From: an uncultured Porphyromonadaceae bacterium
GTDB lineage: Bacteria; Bacteroidota; Bacteroidia; Bacteroidales; Muribaculaceae
Length of the DNA stretch: 43,633 nt
Assembly: GCA_947178165.1 (NCBI GenBank)
Contig: CAMWXH010000012.1
Location: forward strand, 1 to 43,633
Direction of reading: 5' to 3'
Shown: positions 17,049-34,878 of the stretch, piece by piece
Layout of the letters: each line of letters starts with the position of its first letter
Numbering within the stretch: the first letter of the stretch is position 1
Position numbers and translations under genes: made by a program
The notes under the pieces: model-generated
What the model was told of the DNA's origin: nothing
Seen by the model: the letters and a program-made list of their open reading frames with translations, nothing else
The model's database searches: none

Positions 17049-17093
17049 TTTTAAAAGATAAGGGAGTTAAAGACACTCCCTTATCTTTTAAAA
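17049..17093 (-). terminator. Terminator of the pilus operon
   Basis: A perfect 19-bp stem (17049-17067 with 17075-17093, core GATAAGGGAGT/ACTCCCTTATC) and a 7-nt loop starts 1 bp past the stop codon of the last gene. The minus-strand arm ends in TTTTAAAA, which supplies the U-rich 3' side. Confidence 0.85.
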
Positions 17094-17094
17094 A

Positions 17095-20000
17095 TTAATT
17101 TGGTCTTTCAGACGTTGTTTTACCATCTGTTCCGTAATATATTCGACGATCATTTGAACCACCGAAATCATATTCATCACTTTGGTTTCCTGGCTTCTTT
17201 GTCCCGTCATTCCAATTGGCAAGTGTACTTCTGAACAAGACTTTCTTATAATTATTCTTATCTATGTCACAATACAACCACCCAGTTACAGAACCATTTT
17301 TCTTAAGCTGAGTCATGTTCTTGGATTCACCAGTGTTATCATTCTTTACACACCATAGATAAGTAGGACTCCATCCCAAGTCCTTAACATAAATTCGACG
17401 ATAACCGGCAGTTAAAGTTGGTTCATCTTTATATTCCTTAGCCGAGTTATTATATGTCTTGTTATTCGTCAAGGCAAGATCATCTGTCTTAGCTTTGTCA
17501 TCACTCCACGAACCATTTGTAAATATGACAGCGTTGTAGTCATTTGTATTCTCAAAGGTATATGACCATTTAGTATCATTTACCTTGGTCATTGCTTTAT
17601 GCCCAGAATTTGTAGAGCCAACATACAAATATACGTGCGGAGTAGTCCAACCCTCAGGATTAGTGTAATAGATTGTATAACTCTCTGCACCGCCACCGCC
17701 GGATGGGCCGCCGGATTTGGGAGCGGATGCTTTGCTTGTGAACGTTACACTGAGAACACCGTCGCTGTCGGCAGAATAGAGGCTGCTCTTGAAGCTATGA
17801 GACTTTTCTGCTTCATTATCATACCAGTTAATGGTCTCAGGAATCTCTTCAATCTCTGTTTCCCAGTAACAATAAGTGTCTGAATATCTCTTATATTTAC
17901 CTGACGGCGATCCTATAGTCTGGTCATTGGGATAAGAAGAGTAATCTCCATCCACTTTGTAAACATCACCTGCTGTCCAAACATCCAGTCCTTTCCAACT
18001 TGAGCTGTAAGGCCAATAGATGCGATATTTTATCTTGGCTGCATCCGGACTACTCGGTTTGGCTTTGAACATCTCATAGATTGTGGTCACATATTCAGTG
18101 TCGCTCACTTTCTTGAAGGCATCTTTTCCTCCGGCCGTTTCACCCGACACATTGTTACCATTATTCCATGTGTAGGTGTAGTTAAAGCCCCAGCCTTTCT
18201 CCTTGGTCACGTATGTAATCACATAATAGGTCTTGCCGTCGTAAGTCTCCGTGGCAGTAAGGTTTTCGCCACCCCAGTTCTTGTTCACGAGGGTCTTATA
18301 TGAAGAGCTACCTGCCTTTTCCTGAACCTTCAGACGGAAGCCGGAAGGATCATTAGTGGTGTTCGGCGGAGTCTTCAACACATAGAATTTATATGTGATG
18401 TCGGGACGATTATCGAACGTCACCGGTTTTCCTATCTGAGATATGTAATTATCAGATGTAATTTCTGTAACATTCCCCTCTACAGTGGTAGAGAAGGTCT
18501 GCTCACTCTTATCATTCAAATCATCGATGCCGAACTTGAATATTTCAGCCAATGGCCAGCCGTTATATCGGGCTGCACCCGATTCGTTTCCATCCACACG
18601 ACGCGAGAACGTATAGATCTTACCCGAGTCGGTCACATAATTGAATACAAAGCGCAAATCCTCTTTGTTGGAGTTCGTGACATAATTGAACACATATTCC
18701 GTAGCATCACGGTTATACTCAGGATTATACCAGCTTTTGTTACTGCGCATAGTCTTGGGGTCGCCGATAGCCACGCCGGGCCATGCCATAAGGCCTGCCT
18801 TGATACCATCTTTCTTTCTTGCTCTGGTCATATCCACTGAACCGTCTGCATTTTTGCCATATTCCTCGCCTGCGTCATAGATATAGACGTGAGTTGCACC
18901 CGTCACCTTAAAGGCGATTGTTGACTGGCTCACCTCCTCATCGGCATCATCAATGGCACGGACCTGCATGGCATACTTATCCACATTGCCATGCATATAG
19001 CTATTCGATTCTCCCGAAAGCATCAATGCACGTAGCCAATGGCCAATCTGCGCTTTTTCAAGACCCGGAGCCTCGCTCTTGGTCCAGTAATATCCTGCAC
19101 GGGAGTCCCCCACCATCTTGTGTAACTCATTATGATAATACATCACCTTGGGGAGATAGATCATATTGCCGTTCAGATCCTCCACCTTGGAAGCGTAATA
19201 TGTCTTGCCATCCTTAATCTGCATACCATTATCAAAACCGTAGGAGTTGCGTATAATATCCCACTCTGTTGTGTTTGGAATACGGAACCCGGGAGGACAT
19301 ATCACCTTATGTATGTTGGCATTCACATCACCATAGTTCTCACCCTTTGCAGGAAGGAAGTAACCACCGGTTGCCCCGCTATTGAACTCTCCACCGTCGG
19401 AAATGTAATTGGTCGTCACATCTCCCGATTGCGAGAGGATAGACATGCCGGTAGCCGTTGCGCATATGTTACGGTCGAGCCAATAGCGGTTACCGAAGGA
19501 GCGCACTTCATAATAATACCATCCGGCCTGAGCATCACCTTTCTTCTCGTATGTGAGGGGGGTAGTATCGTCTGAATCTGAAGTTGAAGCTTTAACCCGA
19601 TGGAAAAAGCCGGTATGATAGATATCAATGGGAGGCAACTCAATTCCATTTACCATAATGATCAAATCGCCCACAAAGTAACGGAGTCCGAATGAATCGG
19701 ATCTCGCTTTAAGCGTTATCACATTTCCGGCCACAGTCAGGTCGTCGGGGGAGAAAGTCAGGCCTTCGGTCTTGACAGTTACCTCGTCATCGCTATTATA
19801 GACCTCACTGGTAAGGGTGAGTTTATACTCATATTCCCATTTATCTCCATCTTTGCTACCTCCATAATAATATGGGATATGAAGACCCTGATTACGGATT
19901 CTCCCTTCATTAGCTGCAGAGGAGACACCATAAGTGGTTGTGCTCTTGAGGAAGTTCCAATAGTTGGTGTAACATAGATCATTGGTCTTGGTCACGCTTG

Positions 20001-21570
20001 CATTGTTCTCGGTATCGGAACCACGATAAGATATTTTCAGAGAAGCCGAACATATCTTTGTCGGGTCGAAGTCGCCCGACCATTTTACGTTAACTTCACG
20101 AGTAAGTCCACGCCAAGTGACACGAATCTTACCCTCCATCGTACCCATATCATATTTGGAAGCATTTGAAACAACCAGATGATAACCTACTCCGGAGTTT
20201 GATGTTGATTCAGTGTATTCACTATCGTTCGATTCATTGGCAGATAGTTTGGAAAGGCTTTCAAGTTTAAGCCATTCAGCACCTTCAATCACCTCAATAG
20301 AGAAATCATTGTTAGAATAGGCTTGCTTATTTGTAAAGTCTGCCACTGAAGCGGGATATTCCGAAGAGGAGATTTTGGAGAATAAGGATAAGGAGATATA
20401 ATTCTTTGTGGCATTGAGGTTAGCCTCATATTCCACACCAAGTTCACGCACACCATCCGAGGCAATAGATAGCACTGCCGGCACGTGGTCGTGGATATCG
20501 GTCTCTATTATATCCTGCTGAGGGTTCTGCGCCGCAAGTTCGCGAGAGGCATACCCCTTCCCCTTTACTTTCTTGATTGTCACATCATACTGATGGTTGG
20601 CTGTGAGGAAAAGGTATTCCCATTTATTCTCATCATTCTTTTTGCGAAGGTCAACACGGTAGTAGCATGTCTCGCCGGCATATTCGCCACCTATGATAAC
20701 AAAAGCGCGGTTATCATAGGAAGGATCATTCAGATTTTTGGCATCCGTGTAATTGGGTTTTGGCTGCGCGTAGGCATACACGAAATTCGGATTTTCGGAA
20801 TCACTTGAAGGGGTCTGCTCCTCAGAATTCACTGTTCCGCTGCTGTTTTTGGCAAAACCGGTATTATCAGCTGCGCCAGACACACCCGAAGCTGTGTAAG
20901 CATTAGGAGCCGCACTCCATACGTTATAGCTTGTCAGCACAAAATTCTGCACCGTTTCCTCATCAGTTGCGACAGCAAGGCGAGCCAAGTCGCGACGCAT
21001 AGCAACATTTATCCCCTTATTCAAATCCGCTTTACTGGCCATCGCCACGGAAGCCACATCGCCGGGTGTGCCCAATTCAAAGCTACCGGTCATGACTATG
21101 TTTCGGGCCTGTTTCACCAGATCGGTGGCCGCAACGCCATCCTTATCCTTATAAAGGGCATCTACTGTTGCAGGAGCAGTGGTATAGGTTCGGTTGGCAA
21201 CCACAAAGAGATATACAGAACCATTTTTTAACTGATTCTTTACATCATCATTATATTTTACCTTAAGGGAATTTGAAGCATTACCCTCGCTCTCATCACC
21301 GCCATATCCGAATTTGGCAGTCTGGAGAAGAGTTGCATTGGCATAATTGCTTTCTCCTTTATATATCAAAACCGTTGCAGTCGATATATCATCGCTAAGG
21401 CTATATGCGGCACGGGTTGAAACGTGCTGCGGCTCAGCCACTGCGAGATTGATTTCGGCATAATCACGGTCGGGAACTTGATCCGGACTCATGAACCAGT
21501 CATCTTCGGCACATCCGGAGAAAAGGAGCGCCATCAGACAGCTGCAATATATGGTTAGTTTCTTTATCAT
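17095..21570 (-). CDS. Giant fimbrillin-like lipoprotein with FISUMP-like and CBM26-like modules, putative pilus tip adhesin
   Basis: 1491 aa. A type II signal peptide ends at lipobox FSG-C20, followed by AEDD, an acidic surface-export-like signal. Residues 37-350 resemble a fimbrillin N-domain ('TATVLIYKG', 'SVYLFVVANRTYT'), with putative processing site STR53-A. Beta-sandwich modules follow. About residues 686-875 resemble the FISUMP domain ('RYWLDRNICATATG', 'ICPPGFRIPNTTEWDII', 'YYWTKSEAP'). A CBM26-like segment spans about 885-1010 ('GATHVYIYDAG', 'AGLMAWPGVAIG'). After a GGPSGGGG linker, the C-terminal 195 residues hold two more small modules, the first with a good CBM26 look ('YTIYYTNPEGWTTPHVYLY', 'YNAVIFTNG'). 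Starch or glycan binding is inferred from these resemblances. It is the last gene of the pilus operon, 58 bp after its 1186-aa partner. Confidence 0.8.
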   Translation of the reverse strand: MIKKLTIYCSCLMALLFSGCAEDDWFMSPDQVPDRDYAEINLAVAEPQHVSTRAAYSLSDDISTATVLIYKGESNYANATLLQTAKFGYGGDESEGNASNSLKVKYNDDVKNQLKNGSVYLFVVANRTYTTAPATVDALYKDKDGVAATDLVKQARNIVMTGSFELGTPGDVASVAMASKADLNKGINVAMRRDLARLAVATDEETVQNFVLTSYNVWSAAPNAYTASGVSGAADNTGFAKNSSGTVNSEEQTPSSDSENPNFVYAYAQPKPNYTDAKNLNDPSYDNRAFVIIGGEYAGETCYYRVDLRKKNDENKWEYLFLTANHQYDVTIKKVKGKGYASRELAAQNPQQDIIETDIHDHVPAVLSIASDGVRELGVEYEANLNATKNYISLSLFSKISSSEYPASVADFTNKQAYSNNDFSIEVIEGAEWLKLESLSKLSANESNDSEYTESTSNSGVGYHLVVSNASKYDMGTMEGKIRVTWRGLTREVNVKWSGDFDPTKICSASLKISYRGSDTENNASVTKTNDLCYTNYWNFLKSTTTYGVSSAANEGRIRNQGLHIPYYYGGSKDGDKWEYEYKLTLTSEVYNSDDEVTVKTEGLTFSPDDLTVAGNVITLKARSDSFGLRYFVGDLIIMVNGIELPPIDIYHTGFFHRVKASTSDSDDTTPLTYEKKGDAQAGWYYYEVRSFGNRYWLDRNICATATGMSILSQSGDVTTNYISDGGEFNSGATGGYFLPAKGENYGDVNANIHKVICPPGFRIPNTTEWDIIRNSYGFDNGMQIKDGKTYYASKVEDLNGNMIYLPKVMYYHNELHKMVGDSRAGYYWTKSEAPGLEKAQIGHWLRALMLSGESNSYMHGNVDKYAMQVRAIDDADEEVSQSTIAFKVTGATHVYIYDAGEEYGKNADGSVDMTRARKKDGIKAGLMAWPGVAIGDPKTMRSNKSWYNPEYNRDATEYVFNYVTNSNKEDLRFVFNYVTDSGKIYTFSRRVDGNESGAARYNGWPLAEIFKFGIDDLNDKSEQTFSTTVEGNVTEITSDNYISQIGKPVTFDNRPDITYKFYVLKTPPNTTNDPSGFRLKVQEKAGSSSYKTLVNKNWGGENLTATETYDGKTYYVITYVTKEKGWGFNYTYTWNNGNNVSGETAGGKDAFKKVSDTEYVTTIYEMFKAKPSSPDAAKIKYRIYWPYSSSWKGLDVWTAGDVYKVDGDYSSYPNDQTIGSPSGKYKRYSDTYCYWETEIEEIPETINWYDNEAEKSHSFKSSLYSADSDGVLSVTFTSKASAPKSGGPSGGGGAESYTIYYTNPEGWTTPHVYLYVGSTNSGHKAMTKVNDTKWSYTFENTNDYNAVIFTNGSWSDDKAKTDDLALTNNKTYNNSAKEYKDEPTLTAGYRRIYVKDLGWSPTYLWCVKNDNTGESKNMTQLKKNGSVTGWLYCDIDKNNYKKVLFRSTLANWNDGTKKPGNQSDEYDFGGSNDRRIYYGTDGKTTSERPN

Positions 21571-21590
21571 GGATTTTCTTATTTTTAGGA

Positions 21591-21614
21591 GGCTGTCGCA
21601 TCAAAGCGACAGCC
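21591..21614 (-). terminator. Intercistronic hairpin between the two giant genes
   Basis: GGCTGTCGC (21591-21599) and GCGACAGCC (21606-21614) form a perfect 9-bp stem with a 6-nt loop. On the plus strand it is followed by TTTTT. On the minus strand, the direction of the genes, only CCTAAAAAT follows, so it may attenuate transcription or stabilise the upstream message rather than terminate fully. Confidence 0.5.
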
Positions 21615-21628
21615 TTTTTAATCATCTT

Positions 21629-24600
21629 TTATTTCCTATTTATATTGTTTTTTCGTTCCCTTCTTCTTGCCGAAGGACTCGCTTTGCTTATCCTTATCTG
21701 CTTAGTGGCGCTGTTCCATTCAACAGTATAACTCTCCCCTTCCGAAGCACCATTGACTTTCATATTACCGCTTTCATTACCTATTTTAGTCCAGGTATTT
21801 AGATTAATGGATGAACCATTTGAATACCATGTTTTATTACCATTTTTTTCCTCAATGACCTTAAAGTCATTAGTGCCTATAGAAACATTGTATTGTGTAG
21901 TTACACTTTCAAATGATTTCACTCCTCCACTTTGTGGCCAACCGTTAAATCCACCAGTCACTATCACATTAGCATTCTGCATATTAGAGTTTATACTTTC
22001 AATATTCCAACTATCATTAAGCTGATAATATAGCACTTTTGATGTGGATTTCTGAATGTCTGACTGCAACGAAGAATATTCCGACGATCGACAATTTTCG
22101 CTATTGCTATAACTACAGAATCGTAGTTTGGTATTATCGTCAGGAACCTCATATTTCCACCATCGGTCGGAACCAATAGTTTCCAAGTTCATCTTGATGT
22201 TATTATTGCCACTCATGCCATCTGTTCCACCGCTATAACTAATATAGACATCGCCATTATTAAATTCCGGCACTTTACCATTATGTGCTTTATAATAAAC
22301 TGTTACATAATTTACAACTTTTATTTCCGGTTTACCGGCAGTTGCATTACCATTGGCATCAGTATATGCGGTATATCGGTCTTCAACCATAGAGAAGTCT
22401 TTAAGTTTAAGGGTCAACTTTTTGTCACTTCCACCGACAAGACTAATGTTAAGTTCCTCATCTAAGTCTCCAGGATGATCGAAGTCATAGTAATAATAAT
22501 CTCCGACTTCTGTTAATGCATCTTTTCCTACTCCGACAAAATGACTTTTACCGTTAAACCATAAGTATAGCTGAGTAGTTCCGCTCTTCGGCACATAGAT
22601 CCTGTATGGCATTGGATCTTCAACCACGATCGGATCATCTTCTTCCCCATTCCCTGCGTATGGGTTCTCATCGTAGAAATGGTTGGTGGTATAATCATCC
22701 CCACCATTTTCTTTAAGCACAAACCAACCCTCTTTATCTTCATAGTCGAAGAGAGGCACACCTACGGCTTCTCCTTTTGGAAAACGATAATCACTTCCAG
22801 TATGACCATTAGCCCACATCAAGAGAGTCTTTCCAGGTTCGGCCACACCTGAAAGCTCGTATTTCCACCAAGTTTTTCCATCAATTGTCTCCTTTTGCAT
22901 TATGATACCGGGCCAAAGCTGCACTTTGTTCGGACTTTCTCCGGGCGTAGGATTCCAGGTTGGGGAACAATGCTCATCAGTGCAAATGGATTGTCCTGCT
23001 GCTGTTAAATTCTTATAATGAGCATTATTGAACCCAAACCATTCATATCGGTCAGTATTCAGTTTACTACCACTAACATTACCGGTATTAGGCAAATAAT
23101 TAACGCCACTGAATTGGAAGAAACCACCGTAATCCTTACCATAGTTTCCAGCTGCTGTTGGATCATTCACATTAGCACCTCCATATCCTTTCCAACCTTT
23201 GAATGCAAAACCGGTTGAGAAACAATATTTCAATGCCGCATACCAATTATCACCATTCTTATCACCCACTGTTTTACCTGCATACTTGGCGTTATCGCCT
23301 TTCAAATCTACAGGAAGCTCAAGACACTGGTATGCGTATATATGAGGCTTTGTCCAACTGTCTGTATTCGCTTCCGAATGGAAGTGGATGATGTAGTTGG
23401 AAGTATAAGGTATCACCGTATAACGCACAGTCTTCTTGTGGCCGTTATTCTGCTTCAATTTATTGAAGAGGGTGATATCGTCGGCAGATGCATCAGCCGG
23501 CATCTTCACTTCGTATGTTACCTCAAGATATTTTCGGTCGGCATAGAACGGGATACCCTCGTCGAGCTGATAAACGTTCACACCGTCAACACCGCTTGAA
23601 GTTGCATCCGTAGCGACAGTGGGGACAAATGTATTGGCGATTTCTGCACCTGAATAACTTGTCAGTACATCACCTGAAGCATCTTTCCAGCGAGCAGAAC
23701 CCCAAGTGGATTCCACGTAACCGATATTTGATGCATATTCCACATTATAAAGATATTTGCTATAACCGCCGGCGATAAGCTCGCGGAGATCTACCACGAT
23801 TGTCTGCGGATTGACAGTGAAGCTGGGCTCTGCTTCAATCTCGTCTATATCCACACGTTTCTTGAGATTATTGGCAACCACATGGAAATAGCGGAGCGCC
23901 TTTGATTTGGTTTCATCTTTCCATACCGACAATGGGATTGCGTCGTTAATTTGCACCGTAAACTTACCTTCTTTAAAGCTCTTGGTGAAGATGAAAGCGG
24001 GATATTCGTTATTGTTGCTGTCAACATATTTTGGAGCCTCGAGAGAGAAATTCTCGGCTGTAACGTCAGTGTCAAAAGTCAAGGAATATTTCACGCCCGA
24101 CTTCATGGATGCAATCTTCGAGGCGGAAATGCGGAGATAGAACGGACCGCCCACCTCTGCATCAAGAGCATTGTTGATCCAACTATATACATTCAAAGTG
24201 ATGTTCCCTTTCGAATTGAGCAGATATTCATAATGGCAGCCACGATCGAGCGTGCGGACATTATTTCCATCCTTTTCACCAAGAGGGATATCAACTGTCA
24301 GCTCCGTGTCATTCTCATCTTTGAATTTAATATTAAGTTTCGATTCCTCTCTCTTTGAGAAAGTATTTTCGGGAACATAGAAAGTGTAGGTATGGTCCGT
24401 TCCCTTCAGATTGTTGCCCTTAAGCTGCAATCCAGCCGTGCCACTGGTTGCCAGTTCGGAAGAAGTGGCAAGGATCGGGAAAGTCTTGGCATAGTTGAAA
24501 AGATTGGCCTCGGTGAGAGCGCAGTAGTCACCGGCGGGTTTCTCCACATTCACCGTTACCTTTGCCACACAGAACACAAGGTCGGCATATAAGGTCTTGC

Positions 24601-25189
24601 TTCCATCGAAAAGCTGCGCCTGGTTTGAATTGAAATATTTTTTTTCAGAATTATCGCCATAATAATAAATATTCCCGTTGTCGCAACTCATAGGGAGACC
24701 ATTAGCCGCTCCTGCGGTGGTGTTCGGATAGGCAAACATATCGGTGGTATAATCCAATATCTTACCGGCCAGATTCCCCTTAGAGGGATATGATGACTTC
24801 AAAGCACTCTCTTCATCGCTGTCGAAAATATTGGCTACCACATAGAAGAAATAATTCTTATCCTTCTTAAGATTAGATATAGTATATTTTGTGTAACCAT
24901 TAGCTCCTGCAACGCCATTCTTTAGTTCAAACACCTGCACCGGCTCAGCATTAGCTGTTGCGCCATCGTATGCAAATAGATAGACGGTTGATATTTTTTT
25001 CTCCGCCTCTGTCGGAGCCGACTCCGACATTGCGCGCGTCGTCATATCGCTTGGCAGATATATGTGGAGGCCAGGTTCATTATCCTGACCGCCATTATCC
25101 GGCCGTATATCGAAAATATCGTCCGAGCATCCCTGGAAGCAAAGCAGAAGGGATGCAAGGAGCGATAATATGGAAAATCTTTTCAACAT
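21629..25189 (-). CDS. Giant fimbrillin-like lipoprotein with CBM26-like and SusE/F-like modules, putative pilus tip subunit
   Basis: 1186 aa. Lipobox FQG-C21 is followed by SDD. The N-terminal part (40-345) resembles fimbrillins ('STVYLFAYDG', 'NYFFYVVANIF', 'GCHYEYLLNSKGNITLNVY'), with putative processing site TTR52-A. Beta-domains fill 350-595. A CBM26-like unit at about 598-840 ('TKPHIYAYQ', 'NKVQLWPGIIMQ', 'TWWKYELSG') has a long insertion. Similar units lie at 861-960 ('YRIYVPKSGTTQLYLWFNG') and 960-1065 ('VTVYYKAHNG', 'RWWKYEVPDD'). Residues 1073-1168 resemble a SusE/SusF or CBM48-like domain ('NVIVTGGFNGWPQSGG' ... 'YTVEWNSATKQIRIS'). The protein ends in an odd basic tail, 'SPSARRRERKNNINRK', outside any domain, perhaps from a late frameshift. 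Glycan binding is inferred, not shown. It is third in a tight run: 44 bp after the fimbrillin, 58 bp before the 1491-aa gene. Confidence 0.8.
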   Translation of the reverse strand: MLKRFSILSLLASLLLCFQGCSDDIFDIRPDNGGQDNEPGLHIYLPSDMTTRAMSESAPTEAEKKISTVYLFAYDGATANAEPVQVFELKNGVAGANGYTKYTISNLKKDKNYFFYVVANIFDSDEESALKSSYPSKGNLAGKILDYTTDMFAYPNTTAGAANGLPMSCDNGNIYYYGDNSEKKYFNSNQAQLFDGSKTLYADLVFCVAKVTVNVEKPAGDYCALTEANLFNYAKTFPILATSSELATSGTAGLQLKGNNLKGTDHTYTFYVPENTFSKREESKLNIKFKDENDTELTVDIPLGEKDGNNVRTLDRGCHYEYLLNSKGNITLNVYSWINNALDAEVGGPFYLRISASKIASMKSGVKYSLTFDTDVTAENFSLEAPKYVDSNNNEYPAFIFTKSFKEGKFTVQINDAIPLSVWKDETKSKALRYFHVVANNLKKRVDIDEIEAEPSFTVNPQTIVVDLRELIAGGYSKYLYNVEYASNIGYVESTWGSARWKDASGDVLTSYSGAEIANTFVPTVATDATSSGVDGVNVYQLDEGIPFYADRKYLEVTYEVKMPADASADDITLFNKLKQNNGHKKTVRYTVIPYTSNYIIHFHSEANTDSWTKPHIYAYQCLELPVDLKGDNAKYAGKTVGDKNGDNWYAALKYCFSTGFAFKGWKGYGGANVNDPTAAGNYGKDYGGFFQFSGVNYLPNTGNVSGSKLNTDRYEWFGFNNAHYKNLTAAGQSICTDEHCSPTWNPTPGESPNKVQLWPGIIMQKETIDGKTWWKYELSGVAEPGKTLLMWANGHTGSDYRFPKGEAVGVPLFDYEDKEGWFVLKENGGDDYTTNHFYDENPYAGNGEEDDPIVVEDPMPYRIYVPKSGTTQLYLWFNGKSHFVGVGKDALTEVGDYYYYDFDHPGDLDEELNISLVGGSDKKLTLKLKDFSMVEDRYTAYTDANGNATAGKPEIKVVNYVTVYYKAHNGKVPEFNNGDVYISYSGGTDGMSGNNNIKMNLETIGSDRWWKYEVPDDNTKLRFCSYSNSENCRSSEYSSLQSDIQKSTSKVLYYQLNDSWNIESINSNMQNANVIVTGGFNGWPQSGGVKSFESVTTQYNVSIGTNDFKVIEEKNGNKTWYSNGSSINLNTWTKIGNESGNMKVNGASEGESYTVEWNSATKQIRISKASPSARRRERKNNINRK

Positions 25190-25233: not shown

Positions 25234-26520
25234 TTATTTGCTTGCGGAAGGAATCGGCGTGTCATATTCAATTACTTCCACCTCTTTACTGCCCCAATCC
25301 TTTACGCCTACGTTAATGATTAGTTCTCCGGTTGAGGCTTCCACTCCGTTGATCACGAATTCGTAGATGTGGTTGCGGATGATGTCCCAGGCATCTTCTC
25401 CTTCTACTGGCTTGCCGTCGCTGCCGTATCTGCGGAATAAGATGGTGTTATCCCTCTCTTCCCCGTCTATTTCATAGACTACCTTAAGTTCTATCTCCTT
25501 ATCGTGATCATGAACCTGCTCGGTCTCAGCATCGTCGCTGTCTATGTTATAGGTGTCAGGAACGTAAAAACGGATCATATCGGAATTGTTTGCATCCTCC
25601 GGAATCTTATCTGTGGCATTTACAGCAGGACAGCCGGAAGTATATGTTTGCTGCGTAAATACATTGCTCCAGTATTTTTTACTTAGCTCACCGATGTTAG
25701 AGCTTTTCTTCCATAGCTTTGGCACAAAATAGCCTTTTTCACTATGGCGCGAAAGCTGGATGCTCTTCAGCTTCATTCCACGGTCGGCAAGGTCTTTATT
25801 GTTTTTGTTCCATTTCACCCTTACCTTTGCCATTGCGCGGAGCATATTGACAGTGAGGTCTCCGTTGCCTGAACCATTCTGTATGGTATATGTCTCGCCT
25901 ATATCTTTTTTACTTATGTCCTTAAAAGAGGCATCGCCTACACCATACATCGGTATGGAATTGAATGCATCATTGCCGTATGGAATGCCGTGGCAGGTGA
26001 AATAGGCAGTTCCGAGCTTGGAGAGATGGTTACTGGCATCCCCGAATTTATTCAAATCATTATCGTTGATGTTGGCAAAAATTACAAGGCGGTATGTTCC
26101 AGTTTCCAGATCTTTTACAGTCTTGTTACCTAATGTCTTCATCTTCCCTGAGATCACATACTTCTCCTGCAAAACGTTTCCCGCTGCATCTTTCTGATGG
26201 ATGATGTTGTTGTCATAAACAGTCATCTCAGCTATCCTCTGATCCAGTTCATTTGAAGCATTTACACTATATATGAACGCCTTCAAATTCTCTATTTTGT
26301 TGTCGAATTCAGTGCCTTTCTTCGATTCATCATCTGTTTCGTCGATATCGGGTTGGATAGGGTCAATGGATCTCGTGCCCGACATATTCGACGACAGGGA
26401 TAGGACGAAGCTCATGGGAACCTCACCCTCCTTGTCCATAGGATTCACCGGTTCTTCACTCTTACAAGCGGAGAGGAGCGCGGCAAGCCCTAAGGCTATG
26501 TATATTTTCTTGAGTTTCAT
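25234..26520 (-). CDS. Fimbrillin-family lipoprotein (accessory pilus subunit)
   Basis: The 428-aa lipoprotein has signal peptide and lipobox 'ALLSAC' (Cys19) followed by KSEEP. It has the two-domain fimbrillin look: 'NKIENLKAFIYSVNASNELD' and 'TGTYRLVIFANIND' in the N-domain, and 'DIIRNHIYEFVINGV' plus 'ELIINVGVKDWG' near the C-terminus, the strand-ending pattern of Mfa/FimA pilins. Putative processing site: GTR50-S. It is probably an accessory or connector subunit, like FimC-E or Mfa3-4 of Porphyromonas; which one cannot be told from sequence. It starts 22 bp after the Mfa2-type gene and precedes the two giant subunits, so it belongs to the same transcript. Confidence 0.85.
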   Translation of the reverse strand: MKLKKIYIALGLAALLSACKSEEPVNPMDKEGEVPMSFVLSLSSNMSGTRSIDPIQPDIDETDDESKKGTEFDNKIENLKAFIYSVNASNELDQRIAEMTVYDNNIIHQKDAAGNVLQEKYVISGKMKTLGNKTVKDLETGTYRLVIFANINDNDLNKFGDASNHLSKLGTAYFTCHGIPYGNDAFNSIPMYGVGDASFKDISKKDIGETYTIQNGSGNGDLTVNMLRAMAKVRVKWNKNNKDLADRGMKLKSIQLSRHSEKGYFVPKLWKKSSNIGELSKKYWSNVFTQQTYTSGCPAVNATDKIPEDANNSDMIRFYVPDTYNIDSDDAETEQVHDHDKEIELKVVYEIDGEERDNTILFRRYGSDGKPVEGEDAWDIIRNHIYEFVINGVEASTGELIINVGVKDWGSKEVEVIEYDTPIPSASK

Positions 26521-26542: not shown

Positions 26543-27604
26543 TTACTGAAGATCTCCGTTTTGTTCGTATGGTGCCCATGAGTTGATGAGAATCTGATGC
26601 TCTATCCATGCACCGTCAGAGTCAAGGAAGAACATGAGGCGATAGTTATCCTGACGGTCAAGGTATTCCTGGTTGGTGAAGCCTTCGGCCTCGAATGGCT
26701 TAGCAAGCAGGGCATAGTCTCTCAAGGGGACCTGAAGCACTTTCGTTCCGTCGGTGTTGCGGATTGTGAGCATCGACTGGCGACGGTCCATGAGGCGGCT
26801 CATCTTGAGGTCGGCAACGGCTACTTTCTCATTCACGATTGCTCCGGCACGGGTCTCGTCCATCCCGGCAACAACATTCTTTGTGTTGAATGGCTCGTAG
26901 TTGATAGTCTCATCATCCTTTAGCTCATTGTCGCTACCGAGTGTGCCGTTCGCTTCTTCAATCTTGAAAGTGAAGTCACCTACATTCACATCCTTCCCTA
27001 TCTGCTGGAGCATGATGCGGATGTTATTTGTGTCTTTGGTGAGATTGATCTGATACACGTGGTCGCCCTGATGCTGCATATCGTTATTTGCATAGATCTT
27101 TACACCATAAGATGTTCCGTGATAAAGGTCGTAGAGCTGTTCGGCCGAGTGGTGAGTCCCGTCGGGGTGGATATCCCTCTCCATGCGGCAGAGAAGCTCC
27201 TGGCGCGTGGTCACGCCAATCTCGGTGTCGGAAACGATGAAGGATTCGGAGCGTGTGCCGTCGTTGTCGAGGCCGCACCATGCCACGATGGTGTATTCGC
27301 CCGGCTCCACGCCTGTGAGTGGCAGCGTGTAGCCCTGCATTGCGAGTGCGTCGCCTTTCTCAGCGAACTGGAAGGCGAGCTTGTCGTTCTGGTCGAAGCC
27401 ATAGATGGCAACTGAATGTACGTTGCCGCGGAAGGCGTCGGCGCCTACCATATTCGTATCCCACTGGAAGCGGACGGCGTGACGCGTCTCACAGGGGGCG
27501 AGGTCATCATAGATTAGGTTGTTGTCGCAAGATGTGAACAACGATGCCGCGCCAAGGAGGGCGCATGCTACCTGCCAATTAAGGTAATTCTTCACGTTAA
27601 ACAT
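26543..27604 (-). CDS. FimB/Mfa2-family fimbrial anchor lipoprotein
   Basis: The 353-aa lipoprotein has lipobox FTS-C26. The motif 'YDDLAPCETRHAVRFQWDTN' right after the N-terminus, followed by 'VHSVAIYGFDQNDKLAFQF' and 'EPGEYTIVAWCGLDND', is characteristic of the FimB/Mfa2 family, which anchors the pilus and ends polymerisation at the outer membrane. Late strands include 'DNYRLMFFLDSDGAWIEHQI' and 'INSWAPYEQNGDLQ'. Unlike the five pilins it has no separate TR-A/S maturation site around residue 50 (its 'CETRHAV' belongs to the family motif), which fits a non-polymerising anchor. It leads the run of four genes down to 17095. A GxxExxY cassette and a repeat-rich 1.4 kb separate it from the fimbrillin gene upstream. 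Confidence 0.88.
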   Translation of the reverse strand: MFNVKNYLNWQVACALLGAASLFTSCDNNLIYDDLAPCETRHAVRFQWDTNMVGADAFRGNVHSVAIYGFDQNDKLAFQFAEKGDALAMQGYTLPLTGVEPGEYTIVAWCGLDNDGTRSESFIVSDTEIGVTTRQELLCRMERDIHPDGTHHSAEQLYDLYHGTSYGVKIYANNDMQHQGDHVYQINLTKDTNNIRIMLQQIGKDVNVGDFTFKIEEANGTLGSDNELKDDETINYEPFNTKNVVAGMDETRAGAIVNEKVAVADLKMSRLMDRRQSMLTIRNTDGTKVLQVPLRDYALLAKPFEAEGFTNQEYLDRQDNYRLMFFLDSDGAWIEHQILINSWAPYEQNGDLQ

Positions 27605-29043: not shown

Positions 29044-30738
29044 TTATTCAAATTTTACGCCTTGAGAATAAACAGCCCAGTTAAGGATGTTAATTTTTGC
29101 ACCAAGATATGATTCATCAGGAGTACCAGGATCAAAAGATTCAGGTTTTTCAGGAATGATAGGCTTATCAGGATCAAAGATAGGAGTACCCATACCTGCT
29201 ACAGTCTGAAGGTCAAGATTGTAAACGTGGTTACGTACAACTCCGGCAACACCTACATCATCAGGTTTAATTTCTTTAAAGTAGTAGCATTTACCATCAG
29301 CCCATTTCTTAACCCAATATTTCATAGCTTTACCCTGGTAACCAGTTGCTGTCTTAAGGTAGTTATTAACTGTGGTCAAGTTTCCTTCTACTGGAGCAGT
29401 TGTTCCATCTGTGGGATTATATTTACCAATTGTGAGTCCAGTTACTAATTGAGCATATCCTCTATAAGAAGCTCTATTGGGAGTTGTATTATCACCAATA
29501 GCAGTTGGTGCGGCAGCGAAAGTTATATCGGCAGGCTCGATCTTTGTCCAACCTCCTTTACCATCAGATTTCAAATAGTTATCATCATAAAGCATATTGG
29601 CAATCTGAACCTTGATACCATTGGTTGCGCTTTCAGTATAGAACTTACCATTGAAGCCGAGTTCATAAAGTGTCAAACCTGTAGTAGAACCCTTCTTGCA
29701 AAGTTGAGCTGTAATAAGGACACAAGTATTCTGTCCGTTAGTGTTAAGGGTGTTTTCGTAGAGATAATAGGGATTTGATTTAGTTCCCTTGTTCATATTA
29801 AATCCAGTTACAATTGTATTGTAATCACGGTTCTTAAGTTTTCCAGAAAGACCATCTGCAGGAGTAGCCCAATGAGAACGGTATGTTTCGTGAGCAACGA
29901 AACCGGTTTTAAAGTTAGTAGGCCATGTATATGAAGTCTGATCCACATCTTTTACCAAATAAGTTTCTGTAGCTTCATTAGCCATCTCGATACCAGTAAC
30001 AACAACATCAAGTTCTGTATCTGAGCCATCAATTGAAGGCTTGAGGGCAGTTGCTTCAGGATCATATCCAAAAGAGTTCAAGAATGTCCAAGTAACTTTG
30101 GCAAGAACACGCTCTACATAAATATTCTGTGCGTTGGACTCAGCCTCTGACTGGGTGGGATATACTTTCCCTTTGAAAGAAGTGGTATATGTAGGCGTTT
30201 TACCAAAAGCAGAAGAAGACATTACAAAAGCTCCACTTGTTTGAGCTGCGAAGTTGTAATCCTTGGTATTGTTTGTATATGTCTCAACTTTTTTTCTTAC
30301 ACCGTCAATGTCAAGATTGGAAGTTTTACTTATAGTGAAGTCTCCTGGATTAAGGATACACATTACTTCACCAACAGTCTTTTGAGTCTCACCACTTTCA
30401 GCCTTTGGAATTGAAATTGAAACTGCAGTGGTAGAGGTTTTTGTGATGTCGTTAGTGCCGTTATCCCATTTTTTAGGTATGAAAGTAACAACATCCAACA
30501 CTTTTTTACTTGCATCATCGAACACAATAAGCATTGCATTGGTAACAGCACTCTCTGCATCTGTACCAATTTCATCTACAGTCGCACGTGTACCATCAGG
30601 AGTTGCCAGAGTAACACCGATGTAACCGATTTCGGCCGGGCCATTATTGATTTCAACCACCTGCGGCTCATCGTTGTTGGAGCAGCTTGCGAGAGTCATG
30701 GCTGCGCAAAGGGCTGCTAATCCATAAATCTTTTTCAT
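29044..30738 (-). CDS. Mfa1-family fimbrillin 2 (major subunit type)
   Basis: The 564-aa lipoprotein has lipobox LAS-C19, then SNNDEP. The putative maturation site is GTR51-A. The N-domain begins 'AEIGYIGVTLATPDG', followed by 'ESAVTNAMLIVFDDASKKVL'. The C-terminal part shows the Mfa1-family pattern 'GVAGVVRNHVYNLDLQTVAG', 'GTPIFDPDKPIIPEKP' and final strands 'AKINILNWAVYSQGVKFE'. It should be the shaft-forming or an alternative shaft subunit of the pilus. Its first 25 codons and the 85 bp before its ATG are nearly the same as in the 31096-33099 gene, while most of the mature protein differs; a downstream hairpin is also alike. So it is a diverged duplicate. Repeat copy C lies 84 bp upstream. 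Confidence 0.9.
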   Translation of the reverse strand: MKKIYGLAALCAAMTLASCSNNDEPQVVEINNGPAEIGYIGVTLATPDGTRATVDEIGTDAESAVTNAMLIVFDDASKKVLDVVTFIPKKWDNGTNDITKTSTTAVSISIPKAESGETQKTVGEVMCILNPGDFTISKTSNLDIDGVRKKVETYTNNTKDYNFAAQTSGAFVMSSSAFGKTPTYTTSFKGKVYPTQSEAESNAQNIYVERVLAKVTWTFLNSFGYDPEATALKPSIDGSDTELDVVVTGIEMANEATETYLVKDVDQTSYTWPTNFKTGFVAHETYRSHWATPADGLSGKLKNRDYNTIVTGFNMNKGTKSNPYYLYENTLNTNGQNTCVLITAQLCKKGSTTGLTLYELGFNGKFYTESATNGIKVQIANMLYDDNYLKSDGKGGWTKIEPADITFAAAPTAIGDNTTPNRASYRGYAQLVTGLTIGKYNPTDGTTAPVEGNLTTVNNYLKTATGYQGKAMKYWVKKWADGKCYYFKEIKPDDVGVAGVVRNHVYNLDLQTVAGMGTPIFDPDKPIIPEKPESFDPGTPDESYLGAKINILNWAVYSQGVKFE

Positions 30739-31095: not shown

Positions 31096-33099
31096 TTAAT
31101 AGTTATCCTGGCCATTGTTGAAGTCAACATCCTGGTGGTAAGAACCCCAAGAGAGGATGTGGATATCGCAAGCCATTTTCCAAGGCTCGTCCTTAGGATC
31201 AATGTGAGGAGGAGTTACAGGAACAATAATCTCTGTGGGATCAAATACTGGAACGCCAAGACCTACCATTGTTCTGAGAGTGAGGTCATAGATGTGGTTA
31301 CGAACTACACCATATTCTCCAACTTTCTCCATCACAACTTTATCACCATCCATTACATCATCACCATTTTCATCAGTAACTTTTCTTTCAAGTGCCTGAC
31401 CGGTGATAAGCTCTACGTAGTAATAGCATTTACCATTATTCCATCTCCAAACCTGATAATCGGGAGTCTGAAGGTGACCGTTAAATGTATCTTTAGTTAC
31501 ATCAGTAAAGTTTGTACCACCATCCACAGTTTTTACGATAGAGCGTTTTGTATAGTTAACTGCAGAAGTAAGCTGAAGATAGCCGTCGTAACCAAGATTG
31601 TTGGCTGAAACGAAGTCAACATCACCTACATTGATGCTTACATATTTGTAAGTAGCTGGTTTCTCACCTTCTGCCGGAGTCACTTCCTCTTTAACCATAT
31701 AACCTTCGCGCTGGAGAAGATCAAGAAGCACTTTCTTTGCAGACTCCATAGTATAGTACTCACCATTTCTAAGAACACGTACCAGATCTACAGTTTCATT
31801 TGTGCCATGCTTTACGAGTTCTGCAGAAACCACGAGAGCAGTTTTATTGCTGCCATTAGTGTTTTCGTTGATATAGTTATTCACAAACTTAGGCTGAGAA
31901 GAGGCACCTGAAGTAAAGGTGAAGGGAGTGAAGCCCACATTGTAAGAATGATTTACGAAATCAGAAGTGGTTTGTTCAGAAGATTTTCTTGAAGCATTCG
32001 CAGTAGCTGCTGTATTGAATGCCCAGTGTGAACGATGGAAGCCGGAAGCATTCCAATCCTTGAACGGATTTGTAGTGCTGAAAACACCAACTGTAGGAAC
32101 TGCAGCATCTGTACCCATATTCTTAACGAGATATGACTTCTTAGCCACGTTAGCAATTTCGATACCGGTTACCTTGATATCAAATTGGGTGAGCGCATAT
32201 TCATACAGGCCAGTTTTTTCATTATAAGTACCGATTTCAACAGCAGCACCTGTTTGAGCTTTGTTAGCATCTGTGGGGCTGACAACATAAGTGCTTACAA
32301 AGTTATCAGCAAAAGCAGCGTCAACACGTGATACCACACGCTCAACATAAATGCTTACTGGAGTCTCGGCAGCGTTAGCCGCATTATTCTTGATCTTGCT
32401 ATTACCATTTGCATCTAAGCAACTTGAAGTATAAACGAGTTTCTCGCTTCCGGCAGTTGTGTCGTCCCAATAAACAGAATTGGTCATCACGAACTTATTG
32501 ATGGAAGTAAGGTTGGTTGCGTAATCATTTACCACCTTAACAACATCATCGATAGTCTTAATCACTTTGTCATTCGTATCACCATCTTTAAGAGAGCCAT
32601 CCAAATAGTCATCAAGGTTACCGGGGTTGAGAACGGCAATCACCTGAGTGATTTTGTCAACCTTAGCTTTAATAGTGGCAGCATCATCCTCTTTTCTTTT
32701 ATTCTCGTCCGCATCTGTTGATGGAGTATAGTCAACTTTAACATCCACCATAACGTGATAGTCACGTTCTACATTTTCATAAGGTGTAGTGTTCGGATCA
32801 GGAGTAGTGGTTGCTGTGAGATCCACACTCTTTGAAATACCTACGAAGTTACCCTCAGCATCAAAATAGATGAAAGATGCTTTAGATGCCTTGCTCTCAG
32901 CTTCTGTACCATACACGAAGTTATCGTGGTCTGCACGAGTGCCTTTATTGGCGTTAGCGATGTTCACTGAAAGATAGCCACCTACAGCAGATGCAGTGCT
33001 GTCAACTGAGCTACCGGGAACGATGGGCTCATCGTTGTTGGAGCAGCTTGCCAGCGTCATGGCTGCGCAGAGGGCTGCAAATCCATAAATCTTTTTCAT
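31096..33099 (-). CDS. Mfa1-family fimbrillin 1 (major subunit type)
   Basis: The 667-aa lipoprotein has signal peptide MKKIYGFAALCAAMTLASC and lipobox Cys19, then SNNDEP. The putative maturation site is GTR55-A. Fimbrillin N-domain strands include 'GGYLSVNIANANKG' and 'ITQVIAVLNPGNLDDYL'. Mfa1-type C-terminal features are 'YGVVRNHIYDLTLRTMVGLG', 'VPVFDPTEIIVPVTPP' and 'ACDIHILSWGSYHQDVDFNN'. It is expected to be cleaved after Arg55 at the surface and to polymerise by donor-strand exchange, as known for type V pili. It lies 295 bp downstream of the DUF3868 gene, with repeat copy D in the gap. It may be transcribed from its own promoter, which I could not identify. The near-identical 5' end shared with fimbrillin 2 suggests duplication or gene conversion. 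Confidence 0.9.
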   Translation of the reverse strand: MKKIYGFAALCAAMTLASCSNNDEPIVPGSSVDSTASAVGGYLSVNIANANKGTRADHDNFVYGTEAESKASKASFIYFDAEGNFVGISKSVDLTATTTPDPNTTPYENVERDYHVMVDVKVDYTPSTDADENKRKEDDAATIKAKVDKITQVIAVLNPGNLDDYLDGSLKDGDTNDKVIKTIDDVVKVVNDYATNLTSINKFVMTNSVYWDDTTAGSEKLVYTSSCLDANGNSKIKNNAANAAETPVSIYVERVVSRVDAAFADNFVSTYVVSPTDANKAQTGAAVEIGTYNEKTGLYEYALTQFDIKVTGIEIANVAKKSYLVKNMGTDAAVPTVGVFSTTNPFKDWNASGFHRSHWAFNTAATANASRKSSEQTTSDFVNHSYNVGFTPFTFTSGASSQPKFVNNYINENTNGSNKTALVVSAELVKHGTNETVDLVRVLRNGEYYTMESAKKVLLDLLQREGYMVKEEVTPAEGEKPATYKYVSINVGDVDFVSANNLGYDGYLQLTSAVNYTKRSIVKTVDGGTNFTDVTKDTFNGHLQTPDYQVWRWNNGKCYYYVELITGQALERKVTDENGDDVMDGDKVVMEKVGEYGVVRNHIYDLTLRTMVGLGVPVFDPTEIIVPVTPPHIDPKDEPWKMACDIHILSWGSYHQDVDFNNGQDNY

Positions 33100-33393: not shown

Positions 33394-34878
33394 TTATATT
33401 TCTGTATTGAGTAGTTTGTAATGCTTGCCTGCGTTGTCTGTGATATTCTTTATCTGTTTTTCGGCTGCCTGTGCCTGAGGGAGCTGACGGAGGCCTGATA
33501 AAATCTGGTTGGCCTTTGCATAGTCTTTCTCCATTGCGGCGAGGGTGGCCCTTGCATACTGTGCTTCTGTGGAATCTCCAGCCTTGGCGAGGTATTTGGC
33601 CGCCGCTTCGAGGTCTCCTCTCATGAGGGCCGCGTTGCCGGCATTGAGGTTGGCCACGGGATCATTCGGATAAAGCTGCACTGCGAGGTCGAATGTCTCA
33701 TTATATTCTTTGCTTCCCGGCTCAAGGCTCTTTGCTAATACAAACAATTCTGAGAGCGAAAGGTTCTGGGGAGCGGTCTTCATTATCTTAGAAATTTCTT
33801 CCGGGGTCTGATATGAGCGCACCGTGAAGTTCACTGCATAGTCTGAATGACGCAATCCGGGATAAACTTCCGCCAAGAGGAACTGGTAGTCTTTGGGGAA
33901 TTTGGTCTTGATTGCCAGCTCGCGCGCGTCATCTTTTCCACGATATGCGGGGTCGGTGATGATTGCCAAGATACCCTCGGCATTCGTAAGGTTGCGCTTT
34001 CCGGCTTCGCTCTTCACATATTCTTCGAGACCGGCCCAATCCTCAGGTGTATAGGAGGTTGTGATGACGTTGCTCTTGAATTTATAAAGGTTGCGGACAT
34101 AGTCGGCGAGTGTCTGCGTACGTCCCTTTGCGAGTCGTTCATTGTTGGCGTAAGTACCTTCGGGCGATGCGTAACCCTTGATGTGGATGCTTTTGAAGGT
34201 GAGGTTTTCATCAGCTCGGACGGAGTCGATCGTAGCGAGAATCTTCTTCAGCTCCTGCGGGTTGCGACGGTAGTCGGGATAGATCTCTATCTTGTTGACA
34301 GGGAAGTCGATATATGCGCGTGCATTAATCTGACGTTCCTTGATTGCCTCAGCCTTGGGAGTGACATAGATCACATCGGCTGTATATGACCTCGGCACGA
34401 GGTCGATCTGTGCTACCGGCACATAGAAGGCGGGTCCATACTTGGAGCAGCATCCTCTCTCCTGGGCTTCCATCTCCACCTTGGCATCTTCCATCCATTT
34501 GGCGTAAGGGAAATCCTCCTTATACACTATAGGCTCCTTTATCTGTCCTGCACGGTAAGCTACCGGTTCGATGGTGTTTTTGTCGCCGCGGACGTGGCTA
34601 TAGAATCGGTTCTTGCCGGCCACTGCGAAGGGGCGCATGCGGAGAGTGTCGGTTCCGTTCACTATCATCGGCGTATATACCATCTCACGGTTGGTGCTCA
34701 TGCGGAGCTTAGCCGCGTCGAGAGTCATATTGAGGAGGAGACGGTCGCCATCCTTGCGGAGATCGAAGCTTTCCACTCCCAACTTAGGATCCACCTTGGC
34801 CGTCTTGCTGTCAGCAGCAGCGCCGAGGGCCGACCCGAAAATCAAAGCTGAAATTAAGGTGAGTTTTGCTGTTTTCAT
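33394..34878 (-). CDS. DUF3868-type periplasmic/outer-membrane protein with OmpA-like and TPR regions
   Basis: The 494-aa protein has signal peptide MKTAKLTLISALIFGSALGA. The N-terminal half (about 25-200) resembles DUF3868, with strands such as 'GVESFDLRKDGDRLLLNMTL'. An OmpA-C-like domain follows, with the signature 'SIHIKGYASPEGTYANNERL' and 'AKGRTQTLADYV' (about 235-275), which in related proteins binds peptidoglycan. The last 110 residues form TPR-like helices ('PVANLNAGNAALMRGDLEAA'). DUF3868 and DUF3575 proteins are regular partners of fimbrillin genes in Bacteroidales; a role in anchoring or assembling the pilus is inferred. It starts 15 bp downstream of the DUF3575 gene, so the two are co-transcribed. 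Confidence 0.82.
   Translation of the reverse strand: MKTAKLTLISALIFGSALGAAADSKTAKVDPKLGVESFDLRKDGDRLLLNMTLDAAKLRMSTNREMVYTPMIVNGTDTLRMRPFAVAGKNRFYSHVRGDKNTIEPVAYRAGQIKEPIVYKEDFPYAKWMEDAKVEMEAQERGCCSKYGPAFYVPVAQIDLVPRSYTADVIYVTPKAEAIKERQINARAYIDFPVNKIEIYPDYRRNPQELKKILATIDSVRADENLTFKSIHIKGYASPEGTYANNERLAKGRTQTLADYVRNLYKFKSNVITTSYTPEDWAGLEEYVKSEAGKRNLTNAEGILAIITDPAYRGKDDARELAIKTKFPKDYQFLLAEVYPGLRHSDYAVNFTVRSYQTPEEISKIMKTAPQNLSLSELFVLAKSLEPGSKEYNETFDLAVQLYPNDPVANLNAGNAALMRGDLEAAAKYLAKAGDSTEAQYARATLAAMEKDYAKANQILSGLRQLPQAQAAEKQIKNITDNAGKHYKLLNTEI

Follow-up and report, generated by a model that had tools for sequence, protein, structure and literature searches.

What would a pilus bind if its two largest subunits carried starch-binding-type modules? 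A C-terminal ligand domain is described as typical of type V tip pilins, and little is said to be known of what gut type V pili bind (PMC12632263); FimA pili have host proteins as their described ligands (PMC7616799). The window analyzed here, the whole 43,633-nucleotide stretch of DNA from an uncultured member of the Muribaculaceae (contig CAMWXH010000012.1), encodes two lipoproteins at positions 17095-25189 of the minus strand, TIP1 (1,186 aa; 21629..25189) and TIP2 (1,491 aa; 17095..21570). A first-pass annotation had delimited both ORFs correctly and proposed, from sequence alone, that each joins a fimbrillin-like N-part to C-terminal modules resembling CBM26 and SusE/F or CBM48, in a pilus that captures alpha-glucans or host glycans. 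Our conclusion, reached in the absence of binding data, is that the likely explanation is a type V pilus whose tip binds alpha-glucans.

Layout of the type V pilus locus

The TIP1 and TIP2 ORFs close a type V pilus locus (35487 to 17095) and lie downstream of its Mfa2-type anchor gene, with all of the features described here on the minus strand. Its first gene encodes a 197-aa DUF3575 protein (34894..35487; Pfam E = 1.2e-69), upstream of which is a Bacteroidetes-type promoter-like match (35795-35825), itself weak evidence given 3 matches in the window versus 0.88 expected. The next genes are a 494-aa DUF3868/OmpA-like gene (33394..34878; Pfam OmpA E = 4e-4 and DUF3868 E = 7e-4, both below cutoff), at a place where many related loci have ~480-aa genes, and two fimbrillins that are candidate shaft subunits, one of 667 aa (31096..33099; Fimbrillin_C E = 4.4e-10) and one of 564 aa (29044..30738; Fimbrillin_C E = 1.2e-11), both above cutoff. 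These are followed by the Mfa2-type anchor pilin of 353 aa (26543..27604; PF08842 E = 1.1e-54) and a 428-aa Mfa1/FimA-like subunit (25234..26520), whose matches to Pfam Mfa2 (E = 0.0024), Pfam FimA (E = 0.009), and the NCBIfam Mfa1 family (E = 2.8e-10) all fall below cutoff.

The gene order Mfa2, Mfa1-like, TIP1, TIP2 recurs in Muribaculaceae, Bacteroides, and Barnesiella, and in most related loci an anchor gene of the Mfa2 type precedes the tip genes, usually with genes of fimbrillin size upstream. The window meets four criteria for a type V pilus locus, with an Mfa2/FimB-type anchor gene, two fimbrillin shaft subunits, Arg-site lipoprotein pro-subunits, and, at a modest score, homology of TIP1 to tip or accessory pilins. 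An Mfa2-type anchor, fimbrillins, and large accessory Arg-site lipoproteins are shared with FimA-E and Mfa1-5 of Porphyromonas gingivalis and with Bacteroides type V pilins; unlike the known type V pili, the window's tip-type proteins bear CBM26 and related starch-binding-type modules. Gene order and family membership are shown, whereas the tip position of TIP1 and TIP2 is inferred and rests on gene order, length, and lipoprotein form.

The proposed fimbrillin-like N-part and maturation site held. TIP1 has a lipobox with Cys21, maturation Arg52, and a pilin-like N-part (residues 22-590; 23420..25126), the family profile of which matched PDB structures of Mfa4 of P. gingivalis (4rdb, E = 0.0012; 5dhm, E = 0.039) and a putative cell adhesion protein (4gpv, E = 0.036). 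Mfa4 is an accessory pilin of P. gingivalis. Matches came from family profiles alone; no significant PDB match resulted when proteins were searched singly with phmmer. C21 and R52 are invariant in 19/19 TIP1 homologues, and with a loose regular expression the lipobox pattern was found in 42 and the Arg site in 44 of 47 homologues. Display at the cell surface is inferred.

A split CBM26 and a C-terminal module in TIP1

The four motifs quoted in the first-pass annotation were all found, with unequal weight. WPGIIMQ (TIP1 residue 759) belongs to a CBM26 that is split in two. The conserved first half (residues 595-627; 23309..23407) contains HFHSEANTDSWTKPHIYAY (residues 602-620), with W612, Y618, and Y620, and aligns with residues 8-26 of BhCBM26 (2c3g). 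The second half (residues 751-846; 22652..22939), with W759-P-G, W774, and W822, aligns with the CBM26 of Amy13K (6b15) and was modeled mostly at pLDDT 75 to 96. Between the halves lies an insert of ~123 aa (residues 628-750; 22940..23308) that carries an FKGW motif and two conserved cysteines (736 and 741). Left in place, this insert reduces the match to only 9.5 bits in Pfam; once it is deleted, TIP1 scores 29.7 bits against a cutoff of 28.1, and four homologues without their inserts score 40 to 52 bits, such that 5/5 tested proteins exceed the CBM26 cutoff. Because the insert breaks the alignment, hhalign of the intact TIP1 core against CBM26 recovered only the first half (P = 0.057). The top two matches of the core profile against the whole PDB were both CBM26 structures, those of Amy13K and BhCBM26, one for each half, at weak E values of 0.016 and 0.06.

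Conservation of the aromatic platform is shown. Among 50 TIP1 homologues, mostly just 30-45% identical, Y618 is present in 50/50 and Y620 in 49/50, and the W759 position is aromatic in 50/50; these residues rank among the most conserved in TIP1 and meet the CBM26 criterion of an aromatic Tyr/Trp platform. When the model of the TIP1 C-part was searched against the PDB with Foldseek, the listed matches with probability >0.5 were all alpha-glucan-binding modules, amylases, or alpha-glucan-degrading enzymes, and no match reached E <= 0.001. A plain fimbrillin or Ig fold in the TIP1 C-part, named beforehand as the refuting outcome, was not obtained by structure prediction.

The SusE/F- or CBM48-like assignment of NVIVTGGFNGWPQ (at about residue 1073) rests on homology alone. 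This motif opens a module of ~100 aa (residues 1071-1168; 21686..21979) that is SusE/F- or CBM48/53-like and has homologues among the repeats of ~512-aa proteins; these proteins also match CBM26 above cutoff or CBM53/CBM48 below it, and one such repeat protein scores 20 bits for CBM53 (cutoff, 27.6) and 15.4 bits for CBM48 (cutoff, 22.4). TIP1 residues 1071-1168 have no Pfam match of their own and do not meet the criterion for CBM48 or CBM53.

Modules of TIP2

TIP2 combines a FISUMP (Fib_succ_major-like) domain with CBM26 modules, as judged by Pfam and NCBIfam. The FISUMP domain (residues 746-875; 18946..19335) is conserved among TIP2 homologues and modeled at pLDDT of about 82-97, and it matches TIGR02145 (E = 8.2e-6) without reaching the cutoff in TIP2 (26.6 versus 41.65 bits) or in the paralogue from the starch locus described below (29.3 versus 33.9 bits). 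Next is a conserved unit (residues 883-1005; 18556..18924; HVYIY...WPGVAIG) that includes AWPGVAIG (residue 929) and belongs to a family-wide GATHVYLY...WPGxxIGN pattern in which H, V, Y, P, and G are near invariant. In pairwise hhalign comparisons with CBM26, this unit gave P = 0.003 versus 0.29-0.48 for five control regions, at a probability of only about 11%, and its Pfam score of 14.2 bits is below the CBM26 cutoff. The claim that AWPGVAIG marks a CBM26 was thus only partly upheld, and we regard the unit as a divergent module that is no more than CBM26-like.

The claim held for YTIYYTNPEGWTTPHVYLY (residues 1298-1316), which lies in a terminal CBM26 (residues 1300-1354; 17509..17673) that scores above the Pfam cutoff (32.2 versus 28.1 bits; E = 1.2e-7). 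The Tyr pair is kept there, but GHK occupies the WPG position, such that the platform Trp is absent and the platform criterion is not met; homologous TIP2s retain WPG. This module may not bind, a possibility on which there are no binding data, and because of the missing Trp we consider TIP1 the likelier binder of the two. The TIP2 profile (A3) had no matches in the PDB. An AlphaFold2 model of TIP2 residues 640-1491 was confident for the FISUMP region, partly so for the next module, and of low confidence past about residue 1175; its Foldseek matches were mostly antibody Ig noise, and the model was discarded as fold evidence because it is uninformative beyond the FISUMP region.

A referee may ask whether the likeness to CBM26 arose by convergence, as a superficial resemblance in a beta-sandwich that has WPG and YxY motifs. 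The 9.5-bit score of unbroken TIP1, the weak PDB matches, and the lack of a Foldseek match at E <= 0.001 would fit that view. The five TIP1 cores with the insert removed all exceed the Pfam cutoff, however, as do TIP2, the paralogue (1e-14), and homologous TIP2s (about 1e-16), and we consider convergence all but excluded.

A paralogous pilus set within a starch locus

The same genome encodes a paralogous set of Mfa2, Mfa1-like, TIP1, and TIP2 genes elsewhere (C9), and its location in a Sus-type starch locus is shown. The order there is SusC, SusD, SusE/F (3xCBM26), GH13, pilus genes, and GH97, on a single strand with gaps of <=149 bp; no other GH97 occurs in the genome, and the Mfa2 proteins of the two loci share 80% identity. 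Tip genes adjoin similar starch genes in two species beyond the window's genome: in one, the genes after TIP2 are GH97, a CBM26 protein gene, and GH13, and the other (HAN060) has the different arrangement TIP1-TIP2-regulator-SusC-SusD-SusE/F(4xCBM26)-GH13-GH97, with no Mfa2 gene within the sequence inspected. GH13 labels from one reference were partly unreliable, and a weak 684-aa "GH13" upstream in one locus (L061; 2.5e-11) was excluded from the starch context.

The window's locus, like most TIP1 loci, has no adjacent starch genes; its annotated neighbors include no SusC-SusD pair with GH13/GH97, and the criterion for a Sus-type starch polysaccharide utilization locus is satisfied by the C9 paralogue and not by the window's locus. 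Across 33 genomes, proximity of TIP1 to GH97 was not significant within 18 kb (3 observed versus 1.16 expected; P = 0.11) or within 6 kb (2 versus 0.39; P = 0.06). Distance to GH97 was therefore dropped as statistical support, and only direct adjacency on the same strand is improbable by chance. The TIP1 core profile matched in 36 and GH97 in 82 of 101 sampled genomes of the genus; starch use therefore does not require TIP1, and the notion that these tips are indispensable to all starch users is rejected.

Proteins of this kind could instead be SusE/F-like glycan-binding lipoproteins with pilin-like N-domains that work with SusCD at the outer membrane and are not pilus tips. In the Bacteroides starch utilization system, SusE and SusF are likewise lipoproteins of the cell surface that bear starch-binding modules in tandem; their genes accompany those of SusC, SusD, GH13, and GH97, and the proteins remain at the outer membrane, whereas modules on pilin-like proteins are expected to be carried away from it. 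In favor of this alternative, TIP1 and TIP2 are both lipoproteins, paralogues occur inside or beside Sus operons, and the HAN060 tip genes lack Mfa2 in the inspected sequence. We consider it very unlikely, given that an Mfa2 anchor precedes the tip genes in the window and most related loci, with fimbrillin-sized genes usually upstream, and that the Arg maturation site is invariant and the N-part Mfa4-like.

A second alternative is that the CBM26 fold has been repurposed: the insert would change the site, and the tip would bind some other ligand, such as a protein or a glycan of host or microbial origin, or would serve as a structural spacer. The insert does separate the platform halves and carries its own conserved FKGW, C736, and C741; the Trp is lost from the terminal CBM26 of TIP2; most loci lie away from starch genes; and FimA pili of P. 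gingivalis bind host proteins through FimCDE (PMC7616799). It is possible that the insert covers or alters the binding face. Against repurposing, conservation of the platform aromatics is among the highest in the protein, which is unexpected under relaxed selection, and the paralogue lies within a starch locus. A precedent is Sas20d1 of Ruminococcus bromii, in which a Tyr/Trp pair on a CBM26-like face forms a maltotriose platform with extra elements beside the site, as in TIP1, and Sas20 CBM26-like modules with such elements still bind maltooligosaccharides (PMC9112005). Sas20d1 differs in being a Gram-positive amylosome protein whose extras are two loops and a helical bundle, with no insert between platform Tyr and Trp. 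On this evidence we regard repurposing as unlikely, and neither domain nor context specifically supports the host glycan or mucin ligand that was offered as an alternative. The alpha-glucan capture idea is supported by the profile tests, the starch-locus paralogue, and the second arrangement in another species, and glucan binding itself remains an inference.

Proposed function of the tip

In the preferred reading, an alpha-glucan-binding pilus, TIP1 and TIP2 would be tip or near-tip subunits with pilin-like N-parts and C-parts of tandem modules of starch-binding ancestry, namely CBM26 (one enlarged by the insert) and CBM48/53- or SusE/F-like units. They would arrive at the cell surface as lipoproteins, be cleaved after the conserved Arg, and join the Mfa2-anchored shaft by strand exchange, also inferred. 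Displayed at the tip, several weak sites may jointly grip starch or another alpha-1,4-glucan and so bring the cell to its food; a purpose in adhesion or capture is likewise inferred. In some species the tip genes are built into the starch utilization operon itself. The modules resemble known CBM26 modules (BhCBM26, Amy13K, R. bromii amylases and Sas6, and Lactobacillus amylovorus amylase) in sequence family, Tyr/Trp platform, and tandem layout; they differ in residing on pilins rather than on amylases or dockerin proteins, and in the split of the TIP1 module.

A bolder reading, somewhat less likely than not, is that in some Muribaculaceae the type V pilus belongs to the starch utilization system, its genes being co-transcribed with SusC/D/E, GH13, and GH97. 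Such a pilus would be a nutrient-capture organelle whose CBM26-array tip catches distant starch granules and keeps them in place for the Sus machinery; on this view the window locus, which has a shaft of its own, would be a stand-alone relative. A pilin/amylase cluster of Bifidobacterium globosum, in which pilin-related and starch-active proteins are up-regulated on resistant starch (PMC13271388), differs from the window in its Gram-positive pilus type (isopeptide-forming pilin-related proteins) and in that the reported starch modules are on the amylases.

Sequence family, residue conservation, and operon context converge on a single ligand class, the alpha-glucans. In one Muribaculaceae genus, about a third of the 101 genomes sampled have the tip family, which occurs in Bacteroides and Barnesiella as well. 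If our reading is correct, this would be a Bacteroidales pilus that serves feeding on dietary starch, beyond host attachment alone, and pilus genes would form part of some polysaccharide utilization loci.

Pilus locus and inferred position of the tip-type proteins

The interval from 35487 to 17095 on the minus strand of contig C12, part of a 3.17-Mb draft genome, likely represents a single pilus locus. It encodes a DUF3575 protein (34894-35487), a DUF3868/OmpA-like protein (33394-34878), two fimbrillins with Fimbrillin_C (31096-33099 and 29044-30738), an Mfa2-type anchor (26543-27604; E=1.1e-54), an Mfa1-like protein (25234-26520), and the lipoproteins TIP1 (1186 aa; 21629-25189) and TIP2 (1491 aa; 17095-21570), with gaps of 22-58 bp separating the last four genes. 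A small PDDEXK_3 (GxxExxY-type) gene (27863-28261, minus strand) lies between the fimbrillin genes and mfa2. Two strong hairpins immediately downstream of TIP2 (16868-16901 and 17049-17093) are likely the locus terminators. Elsewhere in the window, two large choice-of-anchor-domain proteins (170-4759 and 5807-8950, minus strand) have weak T9SS sorting tails, below cut-off.

The best PDB match of the TIP1 family profile was PG49, the Porphyromonas gingivalis 32-kDa antigen (4rdb, E=0.0012), known as the Mfa1-fimbria accessory pilin Mfa4; 5dhm and a putative cell adhesion protein (4gpv) also matched. C21 and R52 were unchanged across 19 TIP1 homologues. Genome-wide searches recovered 49 loci, distributed over Muribaculaceae, Barnesiella, and Bacteroides (B. 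caecigallinarum among them); in most, Mfa2, Mfa1-like, TIP1, and TIP2 follow one another in that order. Based on this recurrent order and on C-terminal ligand-binding domains being a general feature of tip pilins (PMC12632263), we infer that TIP1 and TIP2 occupy the pilus tip. In a record titled Lachnospiraceae (L062, NALB_7961_29), the pilus operon with TIP1/TIP2 is typical of Bacteroidales, and the contig is probably mis-binned.

Starch-binding-type modules

Residues 595-843 are the best-conserved block of the whole of TIP1, ahead of the pilin part (alignment of 19 homologues). We consider this block likely to be a CBM26 with an insertion: a W..PHIYxY strand, ∼123 residues, and then WPGIxM...GWW. 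Intact TIP1 scored only 9.5 bits against Pfam CBM26, since the model is unable to span the insert; after deletion of the insert, the window protein reached 29.7 bits and four homologues 40 to 52 bits (cut-off, 28.1). When a profile from 50 TIP1 homologues was searched against all PDB sequences, the two best matches were CBM26s: that of Amy13K from Eubacterium rectale matched the second half (6b15, E=0.016) and that of a Bacillus halodurans amylase the first (2c3g, E=0.06). These E-values are weak, yet each match is a starch-binding module from the family to which Pfam had already pointed.

The aromatic residues of the putative binding platform are strongly conserved. Among 50 proteins, mostly 30 to 45% identical to window TIP1 across the core region, Y618 was present in all, Y620 in 49, and W at position 759 in 45 (F or Y in the other 5). 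In the 2c3g chain, the positions aligned with the two tyrosines are 23 and 25. In the CBM26-like starch protein Sas20d1, the maltotriose platform consists of a Tyr and a Trp with a spacing of twelve residues (PMC9112005), and W32L, at what we assume to be the counterpart of the WPG Trp, abolishes starch binding by LaCBM26 (PMC6260227). Affinity for granules is weak with one CBM26 (Kd, about 27 uM) and far higher with a CBM25/26 tandem (0.63 uM) (PMC3398936), which gives an array of modules its logic.

In an AlphaFold2 model of TIP1 590-1186, pLDDT across the CBM26 core was mostly 75 to 96 and fell at its edges and within the insert. Foldseek against PDB gave this model no match at E<=0.001; all matches listed with probability >0.5 were alpha-glucan-binding modules, amylases, or alpha-glucan-degrading enzymes (CBM41s, the AmyP starch-binding domain, beta-amylase, SpuA, and Klebsiella alpha-amylase), the part of the model covered by each not being shown. 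This was the structural check proposed by the first-pass annotation, which had read the two lipoproteins as pilus subunits with starch-binding-like modules. That claim held in essence, with CBM26 above the Pfam cut-off in TIP2 and in insert-deleted TIP1.

In TIP2, its 'AWPGVAIG' unit resembles CBM26 only distantly. This 'GATHVYLY...WPGxxIGN' unit occurs throughout the TIP2 family directly after a FISUMP-like domain (itself below cut-off) and resembled CBM26 by hhalign (P=0.003, versus 0.29 to 0.48 for controls); Pfam did not call it CBM26 (14.2 bits). The TIP2 model was informative solely for the FISUMP region and, in part, the module after it. Near the TIP2 end lies a real CBM26 (32.2 bits) that retains the Tyr pair and has GHK in place of WPG. 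WPG is kept in the TIP2 homologues of three related loci (L064, L065, and L066; CBM26 E about 1e-16), and the window module may have decayed. Lacking WPG, it is a poorer candidate binder than TIP1.

Counterparts of the final ∼100 residues of TIP1 ('NVIVTGGFNGWPQ...') are present in ∼512-aa proteins from relatives, one of which has an above-cut-off CBM26 and another sub-cut-off CBM53 and CBM48 matches. Two such proteins (L034:1357-2895 and L035:1360-2898) have ∼100-aa repeats related to this module, one of the two also having a CBM26, and could be free starch-binding proteins. Unclassified 'YRIYWPYSSSW'-type modules in TIP1 (∼860-960; 22310-22612, minus strand) and TIP2 (∼1165-1300; 17667-18078, minus strand) are found repeatedly in tip proteins and might be a further binding module.

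Genomic context

Genomic context provides the main new evidence. A CBM26 search of the window's genome gave 16 matches, several on contig C9, where one strand encodes SusC, SusD, a SusE/F-like lipoprotein with three CBM26s, GH13, Mfa2, Mfa1-like, TIP1 (CBM26, E=1e-14), TIP2 (CBM26 and FISUMP), and the genome's sole GH97. Neighboring genes here are separated by -4 to 149 bp, and the stretch from SusC to GH97 showed no strong terminator on the minus strand; the Mfa2 is 80% identical to that of the window. Downstream of TIP2 in the related genome G015 come GH97, a CBM26 protein, and GH13. The order in HAN060 is TIP1-TIP2-DUF6377 regulator-SusC-SusD-SusE/F(4xCBM26)-GH13-GH97. The same partners thus occur in two arrangements, with the tip genes on the upstream side (HAN060) or between GH13 and GH97 (window's genome).

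Most TIP1 loci, including that of the window, lie away from starch genes; the TIP1 core profile matched 36 of 101 sampled genomes of the genus and GH97 82. In 33 genomes of the genus, TIP1 lay within 18 kb of GH97 no more often than chance would give (3 observed, 1.16 expected; P=0.11). Direct same-strand TIP-GH97 adjacency was commoner than chance (0.005 expected; found in two species), possibly reflecting a single ancestral event.

Other pilus genes occur in this genome. An operon on contig C16 (L014:6242-13223), with the genome's best Mfa2 match, is divergent from an adjoining GH31 that carries a CBM26 at its N terminus; the operon's accessory proteins had no CBM match. A third TIP1-bearing operon on contig C1 (L100:3693-13208) encodes a 325-aa Mfa2, a 920-aa TIP1 with CBM26 below cut-off, and a 1393-aa protein that has TIP1 module 950-1068 in common (48% identity). 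On contig C7 (16392-18347), an adjacent Mfa2 pair has in-frame stops, and these genes are apparently decaying.

The literature searched, which left most subscription journals uncovered, contained no description of a type V pilus that carries starch-binding modules or lies within a starch locus. A Muribaculaceae survey reported FimA/Mfa genes as well as an enrichment in CBM26, unconnected in the relevant passages (PMC4936053), and pili are not mentioned in work on the starch loci of this family (PMC8636109). We conclude that the window locus encodes a type V pilus whose tip-type proteins, placed there by inference, carry CBM26-type modules; alpha-glucan binding by these proteins is unproven and, in our judgment, likely.
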